The position numbers and the translations under genes were made by a program. Source: Candidatus Allochristensenella caecavium (GTDB taxonomy: Bacteria > Bacillota > Clostridia > Christensenellales > QAND01). Taken from it: a stretch of 64,000 nucleotides of DNA. Positions 5,567 to 8,010 of this stretch are shown here, in pieces. The DNA is taken from assembly GCA_904397865.1 (NCBI GenBank), contig CAJFOS010000016.1, forward strand, positions 62,001 to 126,000, read 5' to 3'. The notes below the pieces were generated by a model. That model saw only the letters and a program-made list of their open reading frames with translations, had not been told where the DNA came from and made no database searches. The stretch's first letter is position 1, and each line of letters starts with the position of its first letter.

Positions 5567-6259
5567 ATGGCGATTTTTGCAATCAGCGACCCGCATCTCT
5601 CTTTGGCAAAACCAAAGCCGATGACGATTTTCGGAGCGCAATGGACCAATCATTGGGAGCGGATGCAGGAAAACTGGCGCGCCTGTGTAAAACAAGAGGA
5701 CTTGGTGTTGATGCCGGGCGACATCAGCTGGGCGATGCAGCTTTCCGATGCACAGGTTGATTTGGATGCCATTGGTGCATTGCCGGGACAGAAGCTGCTG
5801 ATGCGCGGCAATCATGACTACTGGTGGGGGTCGCTGGCCCGTGTGCGGCGGGCGCTGCCGGAGGGGATGCATGCGTTGCAGAATGACCATTTCGTATATC
5901 AGGGCCGTGCGATTGCAGGGACGCGCGGGTGGACCTGCCCGGGTTCTTCCGGATTTTCCGAACAGGACCGGCGGCTGTATGAGCGGGAGGTTCAGCGGCT
6001 GGAGCTTTCGTTGAAGAGCGCAGCGCAGACAGGTGAACCGCCGGCAGTAGTGATGATGCATTATCCACCGTTCAATGAAAAAAGGGAAGAGAACGGCTTT
6101 CTGCGTCTCTTTACAGCTTACGGAGTCCGTCATGTCATTTATGGACACTTGCATGGCCGTTCGCTTTCCTATGCGTTTGAAGGTGAGCATGAAGGGGTTT
6201 TGTATCAACTGGTATCATGCGACCACTTGCAGTTTGCCCCCCTTCTTTTATGCAAATAA
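5567..6259 (+). CDS. Calcineurin-like metallophosphoesterase
   Basis: Protein of 230 residues with the full dimetal phosphoesterase signature: Asp8-x-His10, Gly-Asp52, Gly-Asn82-His83-Asp84 and a C-terminal GHLHG. The residues between are tryptophan-rich (YWWGS, DISW), as in the uncharacterised YkuE/Icc-like phosphohydrolases of Clostridia. The substrate cannot be read from the sequence. No strong ribosome binding site precedes the ATG, and the 18-base gap to the zinc-ribbon gene suggests coupled expression. A good terminator follows at 6269. Confidence 0.85.
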   Translation: MAIFAISDPHLSLAKPKPMTIFGAQWTNHWERMQENWRACVKQEDLVLMPGDISWAMQLSDAQVDLDAIGALPGQKLLMRGNHDYWWGSLARVRRALPEGMHALQNDHFVYQGRAIAGTRGWTCPGSSGFSEQDRRLYEREVQRLELSLKSAAQTGEPPAVVMMHYPPFNEKREENGFLRLFTAYGVRHVIYGHLHGRSLSYAFEGEHEGVLYQLVSCDHLQFAPLLLCK

Positions 6260-6268
6260 GAACAAATG

Positions 6269-6292
6269 AGCAGGCAGCGGCCTGCTTTTTTT
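6269..6292 (+). terminator. Terminator after the metallophosphoesterase gene
   Basis: AGCAGGC (6269-6275) pairs with GCCTGCT (6280-6286) across a four-base AGCG loop and runs into seven T residues. It is a textbook intrinsic terminator ten bases after the stop codon. Confidence 0.9.
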
Positions 6293-6295
6293 GTA

Positions 6296-6310
6296 CCACT
6301 TTTTCCCACT
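6296..6310 (-). promoter_or_regulatory. MraZ-box-like pair, minus strand
   Basis: CCACT at 6296-6300 and again at 6306-6310, exactly 10 bases apart; read on the minus strand this is AAGTGG repeated with one helical turn of spacing. The unit matches the four repeats in front of mraZ. Confidence 0.45.
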
Positions 6311-6369
6311 TGGGCTTGTATTCCACACAACAAAAGGATGGATAAATATGCTGGGAAAGACAGGTGAAA

Positions 6370-6384
6370 CCACTTTGTCCCACT
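6370..6384 (-). promoter_or_regulatory. Second MraZ-box-like pair, minus strand
   Basis: CCACT at 6370-6374 and 6380-6384, again exactly 10 bases apart. The second copy touches the 5' arm of the hairpin at 6384-6410. Confidence 0.45.
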
Positions 6385-6410
6385 GCCGATCCGATGGACC
6401 GGCATTTTTT
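6384..6410 (+). terminator. Intrinsic terminator inside the mraZ upstream region
   Basis: TGCCG (6384-6388) pairs with CGGCA (6400-6404), and inner TCC (6390-6392) pairs with GGA (6396-6398) around a GAT loop, with one A/C mismatch between them. Six T residues follow at 6405-6410. It lies 92 bases after the previous terminator, so it implies either a short transcript starting between them or a leader. Confidence 0.65.
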
Positions 6411-6419
6411 ATGCCTGCG

Positions 6420-6444
6420 AGTGGAACAGGGTGGGAAAAAGTAG
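6420..6444 (+). promoter_or_regulatory. Degenerate MraZ-box triplet, plus strand
   Basis: AGTGG (6420-6424), GGTGG (6430-6434) and AGTAG (6440-6444) at an exact 10-base period, each of the last two one base from the AGTGG unit. Same unit and period as the operator before mraZ, but weaker. Confidence 0.35.
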
Positions 6445-6534
6445 AAGAAAAAATAAGAACATTTGTTCCCTTAATCCCTAAAATGAGGCGTGATTGCCTG
6501 GTTATTTCATCCAATTTCCCAAAAAAGACATAAA

Positions 6535-6570
6535 AAGTGGGTAAAAGTGGATAGAAGTGGTTGAAAGTGG
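6535..6570 (+). promoter_or_regulatory. MraZ operator: four AAGTGG repeats, 10-base period
   Basis: AAGTGG occurs at 6535-6540, 6545-6550, 6555-6560 and 6565-6570, perfectly phased at 10 bases. MraZ is known to bind direct GTGG-type repeats of this spacing upstream of its own gene and repress or tune the dcw cluster. The last repeat overlaps the end of the -35 element, which fits autorepression by promoter occlusion. Confidence 0.9.
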
Positions 6571-6589
6571 GAATGAGGTGTTCTATAAT
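6561..6589 (+). promoter_or_regulatory. Sigma-A promoter of the dcw cluster
   Basis: TTGAAA at 6561-6566 and a perfect TATAAT at 6584-6589 with a 17-base spacer. It begins inside the MraZ operator and lies 37 bases before the mraZ start codon. Confidence 0.9.
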
Positions 6590-6625
6590 AAAGCATATCT
6601 AAAATTAGGAGGTGAGAAGATACCC

Positions 6626-7078
6626 ATGGGACAGCTGATTGGCGAATTTTCCCATTCAATGGATGCCAAAGGCCGCGTCAAGCTTCCAAGCGTATGGGAG
6701 GCGGAACTGGGCGGCAAATTCATGGTTACCCGTGGGACGGGCCCGATGCTCTTTATCTTCTCTATGCCTCAGTGGGAAATCTTTTGCCAGAAATTGGCGG
6801 AACTCCCGATGATGGACCCGAGCGCACAGGCGCTGCGTCGTATTTTTGGTGCAGGCGCCCGCGAATGCGAGGTGGACAAGCAGGGACGTTTTTTAATCCC
6901 ACAAAAATTGCGCGAACATGCGCATCTGGAAAAGGAAACCGTCCTGGCAGGCGCTTTCACTTGGGGCGAAATTTGGAACGCGCAGGCCTGGGAGGAATAT
7001 AACAACCAATATGCGGATACCGCCGGCGAGGACTTCATGCAGCTGATGTCCACCGTCACACAGAAATTCTCACTATGA
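6626..7078 (+). CDS. mraZ: Transcriptional regulator MraZ
   Basis: Protein of 150 residues with two SpoVT/AbrB-like halves, each carrying the DxxGR signature (DAKGR near residue 15, DKQGR near residue 91). MraZ forms a ring that binds the phased repeats upstream of its gene and controls the division and cell wall cluster. The frame is open to 6557, but ATG 6626 follows AGGAGGTGAG at 6607-6616 and gives the normal MraZ N-terminus. The stop overlaps the rsmH start (ATGA). Confidence 0.96.
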
Positions 7079-8010
7079 GCGAATACAAACACGTTTCCGT
7101 GTTACTCGCACCGACGATTGAACTTTTGGCACCCGCGCCCGGGGCCATTATGGTGGATGGAACGGTGGGGCTTGGCGGCCATAGCGAAGCGATTCTTCAG
7201 CGCATTCGACCGGACGGCATTCTCTTTGGCGTAGACCGGGACCGTAACGCCCTGGCCATGGCGAAGAGAAGGCTGGCGGAGGGATTCTTGCCCATTCATG
7301 GAAACTTCTTTAACCTGCGGTCGCTGCTGGCGGAAAACGGTGTTCAGACTGTTGATGGCGTCGTACTGGATTTGGGTGTTTCCTCTTATCAGTTGGACGA
7401 GCCAAGCCGAGGGTTTTCTTACATGGCGGACGCGCCGCTGGATATGCGCATGGATGAAACCCAGCCATATAGTGCCAGGGATGCGGTGAACACCTTAGGC
7501 GAAGAGGAGTTGCGCCGCATCATCCAGGAATATGGCGAGGAACGGTGGGCCAAGCGAATTGCCCAGTTTATTGCGCAGAAAAGACAGCAGGCACCGATTG
7601 AAACAACTGGCCAGCTGGTGGAAATCATCAAAGCGGCCATTCCCGCCTCTGCCCGACGTGAAGGACCGCATCCGGCTAAACGGACGTTTCAGGCGCTGCG
7701 CATTCACGTCAACGGTGAACTCGAAGGGCTGGGACAAGCCCTGGAAGATGCCGTGCATTGCTTAAAACCGGGTGGACGGTTGTGTGTGATTACATTTCAT
7801 TCGCTGGAAGACCGCATTGTCAAACAAACCTTCCAACGCTTGCAAAATCCGTGCACGTGTCCGCCGCATAGTCCGATATGCACATGCGGAAAGCAAGCGG
7901 AAGTGGAAATTTTAACGCGAAAACCGATTGTTCCTGATGCACAGGAGCTTGATGAAAATCCGCGTTCCCGCAGCGCTAAGCTGCGCGCGGTACGCCGGCT
8001 GGCGTTCTAA
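7075..8010 (+). CDS. rsmH: 16S rRNA m4C1402 methyltransferase RsmH (MraW)
   Basis: S-adenosylmethionine-dependent enzyme of 311 residues that N4-methylates C1402 in the 16S rRNA decoding centre. The SAM loop [10 protein letters not shown] lies near residue 23, and the family blocks [16 protein letters not shown] and [12 protein letters not shown] are all present. A cysteine-rich stretch (CTCPP...CTC) precedes the C-terminus, as often seen in Clostridial copies. It overlaps mraZ by four bases and is the standard second gene of the dcw cluster. Confidence 0.96.

Follow-up and report, generated by a model that had tools for sequence, protein, structure and literature searches.

Few bacterial transcription regulators are as widespread as MraZ, whose gene stands first in the division gene cluster. 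In the stretch of DNA analyzed here (the window, 64,000 nucleotides of a 1.61-Mb genome), the repeats that make up the MraZ operator recur further upstream of mraZ, partly on the opposite strand. This locus therefore raises the question of whether the additional repeats are operators as well and, if so, what they contribute to control of the cluster.

Arrangement of the repeats before mraZ in the window

The open reading frames of the window, named by sequence and gene order, follow each other as clpP, clpX, lon, a GTPase gene, a short cysteine-rich gene, a metallophosphoesterase gene, mraZ, mraW, and the remaining dcw (division and cell-wall) cluster. The upstream neighbor of mraZ encodes a calcineurin-like metallophosphoesterase (positions 5567 to 6259, plus strand, stop codon at 6257 to 6259; Pfam match to PF00149) and is followed by an intrinsic terminator, GCAGGCAGCGGCCTGC plus a T run, at 6268 to 6293 on the plus strand. 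The mraZ gene (6626 to 7078, plus strand) encodes 150 amino acids with two PF02381 domains harboring the motifs DAKGR and DKQGR, and the encoded protein matches the solved MraZ chains 1n0e, 9qlg, 9sx6, and 9qlr; a search of viral contigs for MraZ yielded no relative. The start of the dcw cluster is marked by mraW/rsmH (7075 to 8010, plus strand), likewise identified by sequence and gene order. The intergenic region between the metallophosphoesterase gene and mraZ extends from 6260 to 6625. An open reading frame of 80 amino acids at 6291 to 6533, which spans this region, was taken as incidental.

Directly upstream of mraZ, four AAGTGG repeats at 6535, 6545, 6555, and 6565 (6535 to 6570, plus strand; dimer scores of 24.1 to 24.5) constitute a canonical MraZ operator, which is recognized by at least three direct AAAGTGG-type repeats with a 10-base step. 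The operator overlaps the mraZ promoter (6561 to 6589, plus strand, 11 of 12 matches), since the -35 hexamer TTGAAA (6561 to 6566) lies within the last repeat spacer, separated by 17 nt from the -10 hexamer TATAAT (6584 to 6589).

Further upstream, two reversed pairs of MraZ-like repeats are found on the minus strand, pair A at 6296 to 6310 (AGTGGGAAAAAGTGG, dimer score of 23.0) and pair B at 6370 to 6384 (AGTGGGACAAAGTGG, dimer score of 21.1). Pair B adjoins a second terminator-like hairpin with a T6 tract, TGCCGATCCGATGGACCGGCA, at 6384 to 6410 on the plus strand, which was recognized by folding, contains one mismatch, and is absent from a simple terminator scan. A degenerate plus-strand group follows at 6420 to 6444, with AGTGG, GGTGG, and AGTAG at 6420, 6430, and 6440 in 10-base steps. 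An earlier note on this DNA had placed all of these repeats correctly on both strands; its count of eleven half-sites in 275 bases holds when the degenerate AGTAG is included. The plus-strand group, described there as a triplet, is retained as a pair: its first two units fit a loosened pattern, whereas the third, AGTAG, is poor, the dimer score being weak at 13.2 versus 21 to 25 elsewhere.

Pattern searches of the host genome were used to judge the role of chance. Across the 1.61-Mb genome, AGTGGN5AGTGG was matched five times, each time inside 6296 to 6570, and its reversed control pattern has no match genome-wide. For RGTGGN5RGTGG, six matches were found in the 64 kb of the window, again all within 6296 to 6570, where 0.39 were expected. 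The loosened pattern adds just one site, the plus-strand pair at 6420; given six matches against 0.39 expected, this group, taken as a pair, is unlikely to be noise. Pairs A and B share the AAAGTGG unit and the exact 10-base phase with the local MraZ box. Each comprises two repeats rather than three or four, and no promoter-like site was found at either of them in the window.

Reversed pairs upstream of mraZ in other genomes

Regions upstream of mraZ were gathered throughout the order as well as from Bacilli and from Clostridia outside it, and 203 of them were used in a spacing test. Phased runs of two or more GTGG units are present in 147 of the 203 regions. Minus-strand GTGG pairs with a spacing of exactly 10 bases were detected at -600 to -120 in 17 genomes, whereas each of the remaining spacings between 5 and 31 gave 0 to 5 genomes; plus-strand pairs in the same test showed no peak at 10 (4 genomes). 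A box matrix was then trained on canonical operators, and reversed pairs were counted at a score of at least 17 in the interval from -450 to -115. With this matrix, phased groups upstream of orthologous mraZ genes were recovered as reversed pairs in 17 of 157 genomes, belonging to 9 of 82 genera of the order. Dinucleotide shuffles yielded a mean of 0.16 genomes with a reversed pair and a maximum of 2 in 100 trials, against the 17 observed, and the control region from -1200 to -700 contained a reversed pair in 0 of 150 genomes. Outside the order, a reversed pair scored in 1 of 74 genomes, and the region upstream of mraZ in E. coli contains canonical boxes and no reversed pair.

Some matches were set aside. 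In family f15, minus-strand pairs occur in two of eight genomes (G016 and G234) and fall within the reading frame of the upstream gene; once these genera are discounted, seven genera in five families carry reversed pairs. A double match to AGTGGGACAAAGTGG in G208 (L137, i.e., G208:C16, 900 to 1350) was rejected as an operator, as it is located on a contig other than that of the G208 mraZ, inside longer CCAC-rich near-duplicate blocks about 217 bases apart. When 60 relatives were searched at the DNA level with the complete intergenic sequence, only short matches to the canonical boxes and noise were returned. Reversed GGTGG-type repeats are also present upstream of mraZ in two Bacillaceae, Oceanobacillus and Ornithinibacillus (L091, at about -168, and L107, at about -258); these are suggestive and may represent the same feature outside the order. 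As for mraZ itself, 49 of 297 genomes of the order, including the family relative G002, gave no MraZ match, and 34 of the 49 are among the 247 genomes listed as at least 90% complete; either real losses or assembly gaps would account for this.

The distribution of the distal pairs is patchy, with most genomes of the order being devoid of them. The only family relative with an mraZ gene, G001, belongs to another genus and encodes an MraZ protein with 54% identity to that of the window. Its canonical boxes are kept and can be aligned with those of the window, but both minus-strand pairs are absent from its upstream region, and the intergenic region is 130 bases shorter. Since the pairs are missing in G001 and in most genomes of the order, they are dispensable for MraZ control in general.

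Where they occur, the extra reversed copies sit 150 to 400 bases further upstream, as seen in the window genome and several relatives, and two reversed clusters between the metallophosphoesterase gene and mraZ are found in three families, represented by the window, genus g42, and G028. In g42, nine genomes carry mraZ; their MraZ proteins are 57 to 99% identical, and the intergenic similarity is no longer alignable except for four islands. The first, directly after the metallophosphoesterase stop codon at about -270, is a reversed pair A, roughly CCAYTTTTNNCCAYTT, whose second half is weak in G065 and G170. Around -156 follows a reversed cluster B, which starts with ATCCAC or GTCCAC and lacks the second half-site in some genomes. 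The AT-rich palindrome CACAATATATTGTG, located near -130, and the canonical operator are the remaining two. Both reversed clusters are thus kept in this genus. The distance from cluster B to the operator is either 102 to 104 or 113 to 114 bp, that from the palindrome to the operator is 73 to 75 or 85 to 86 bp, and that from pair A to cluster B is 113 to 115 or 105 bp, so that the spacing classes differ by about one helical turn; as the g42 genomes are related, these steps represent few independent events. From pair A to the operator, the distance is 239 bp in the window genome (G000), 215 to 228 bp in g42, and 315 bp in G028, and this variation between families indicates that there is no universal helical phase.

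In G028 (family f27), a reversed pair is located five bases after the metallophosphoesterase stop codon, with a second, weaker one 121 bases further on. Genus g18 is arranged differently: in the five genomes in which the metallophosphoesterase gene was located (L273, L284, L277, L280, and L285), it is divergent, whereas it is codirectional in g42 and the window. Reversed pairs with scores of at least 17 occur in three of six g18 genomes, and G145 and G102 have additional half-sites alongside. Taken as putative MraZ boxes, as the earlier note had proposed, the upstream groups are supported by their unit, their 10-base phase, their uniqueness in the genome, their recurrence in other families, and their conservation in the nine genomes of one genus.

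Proposed distal operators, possible looping, and rival explanations

Known MraZ operators, as cited in PMC8475190 and PMC5138195, consist of direct repeats grouped at a single place, the mraZ promoter, as described for E. coli (Eraso 2014) and for Mollicutes (Fisunov 2016; AAAGTG[T/G]), and in M. genitalium the motif is reported to occur only at the mraZ promoter (PMC8475190). The repeats at 6535 to 6570 are an ordinary member of this class, and the window agrees with it in unit, 10-base step, position upstream of mraZ, and regulator family. Unlike the known cases with one site at the promoter, it adds pairs that face the opposite way, 150 to 240 bases upstream. In the open-access papers searched, which cover the two key MraZ operator papers (Eraso 2014; Fisunov 2016) through citations, distal or reversed MraZ boxes were not encountered, and we therefore provisionally regard them as a new form of MraZ operator.

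The unit and phase of the MraZ box, together with the lack of exact copies anywhere else in the genome, lead us to infer that the distal pairs are bound by MraZ. DNA looping between the distal and promoter operators is less certain than binding; it is suggested by the ring-forming nature of MraZ, known from published structures, by the spacing shifts of about a helical turn in g42, and by the scarcity of promoters belonging to the distal pairs themselves, a -10-like hexamer following 3 of 20 distal pairs compared to 63 of 159 canonical operators. The explanation we favor, with roughly even confidence, is that the reversed pairs are distal auxiliary MraZ operators and that one ring, or two touching rings, bridges the promoter operator and a distal pair in a DNA loop. 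MraZ, as autorepressor of the dcw cluster, would occupy the promoter operator with some of its ring subunits, while other subunits of that ring, or a second contacting ring, would hold the distal pair. A loop of about 85 to 300 bp would thereby be closed, which would raise MraZ occupancy at the promoter and deepen autorepression of the cluster.

Auxiliary operators that loop DNA are familiar from the repressors of lac (O1-O2/O3), gal, deo, and ara. The arrangement upstream of mraZ resembles these in combining a strong promoter operator with distal operators at distances of tens to hundreds of bases and, in g42, in spacing shifts by helical turns. It differs in that MraZ belongs to another protein family, that the distal sites face the opposite way from the promoter site, and that looping is here deduced from spacing only. 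As the MraZ ring has more DNA-binding units than the promoter site uses, conserved, reversed, and helically spaced distal sites would give a testable reason for this surplus: the ring may hold two DNA segments.

In several genomes the upstream gene has the pairs at its 3' end, and the main rival explanation is therefore that MraZ bound there acts as a roadblock or insulator, halting read-through into the dcw cluster and leaving the cluster responsive only to its own promoter. The distal pair indeed lies three to five bases past the metallophosphoesterase stop codon in G028 and g42, and in the window pair A follows the terminator of this gene and pair B adjoins the second terminator-like hairpin. 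However, with these two hairpins the window already has terminator-like structures at this place, and the steps of about one helical turn in g42 are not required for a block. In g18, the neighboring gene is divergent, leaving no read-through from it to be halted, yet reversed pairs are present in some genomes of this genus. The g18 arrangement thus speaks against a roadblock as a general answer, and we consider it unlikely.

Alternatively, as the earlier note had suggested, the upstream pairs could control another transcript, with MraZ coregulating a divergent gene or an antisense RNA through them. Their orientation is that expected for the operator of a leftward promoter, the metallophosphoesterase gene is divergent in g18, and a -10-like hexamer lies at a fitting distance from three distal pairs. 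This suggestion is weakened by the other 17 of the 20 distal pairs, which lack such a hexamer, and by the location of the window and g42 pairs at the 3' end of a codirectional gene; moreover, no leftward promoter was found in the window, and no conserved promoter is seen on the left side of the g42 clusters. It may hold in g18 with its divergent neighbor; overall, we consider a leftward transcript improbable.

The pairs in the window genome might also be functionless, either relics, for instance of an inverted duplication of the operator, or products of chance. Their absence from G001, the nearest available relative, and the patchy distribution in the order would fit this, but chance is excluded by the genome-wide pattern counts and the shuffle test, and the recurrence in several families with orientation and phase unchanged, together with the conservation in nine g42 genomes, argues for a function at least there. 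We accordingly give this explanation little credence. Least probable of all is a role at the RNA level, in which the inverted arms (about 6298 to 6311 with 6430 to 6443) would pair as a long hairpin in read-through mRNA and control termination before the cluster: the segment from 6262 to 6470 does fold better than its shuffles (z of -4.2) and forms a long-range stem of 14 base pairs, but the two terminator hairpins supply part of the fold energy, g42 lacks a plus-strand partner cluster in between, changes of GTGG to ATGG in its cluster A are unmatched in the canonical boxes, and a search of 6000 to 7100 against Rfam gave no match.

NrdR- and LexA-type palindromes near mraZ

If the distal pairs serve as auxiliary operators in a loop, other regulators may act within it. 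We tentatively propose that the dcw cluster in a Clostridia lineage is controlled by a loop in which one MraZ ring would grip the promoter operator together with the inverted distal operators. In several genera this loop would enclose NrdR or LexA sites, and competition for the loop, or its reinforcement, might then link expression of the division genes to nucleotide supply or DNA damage.

Outside the region upstream of mraZ, the g42 palindrome CACAATATATTGTG has one other exact copy in G256, directly upstream of nrdD, which encodes the anaerobic ribonucleotide reductase. As this sole other copy precedes nrdD, the palindrome is probably an NrdR box. The arrangement resembles NrdR box pairs in having two sites upstream of a promoter, and NrdR-type palindromes occur in the mraZ upstream regions of several relatives; the NrdR box itself, however, is AT-rich and palindromic and is the site of a different regulator. 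NrdR-type cores were found at -320 to -60 of mraZ in 12 genera (60 kb), compared to 2 in 114 kb of control sequence. The palindromes are located at about -130 in g42 (L246 to L254), at -153 in L296 (G037), at about -159/-190 in L062, L070, L067, and L078, and at L321:1501-1514; none was found upstream of mraZ in the window. These sequences suggest that in some Clostridia the NrdR regulon of ribonucleotide reductase includes the dcw cluster.

The window contains a candidate LexA/DinR-type site, the palindrome GAACATTTGTTC at 6457 to 6468 on the plus strand, and motifs of this kind raise the possibility that the division cluster is under SOS control. The Gram-positive LexA/DinR-type pattern GAACN4GTTC occurs 146 to 210 bases before mraZ in 7 genera, compared to 1 in a control twice as large, and its carriers besides the window are G171, G030, G085, G090, G050, and G234.
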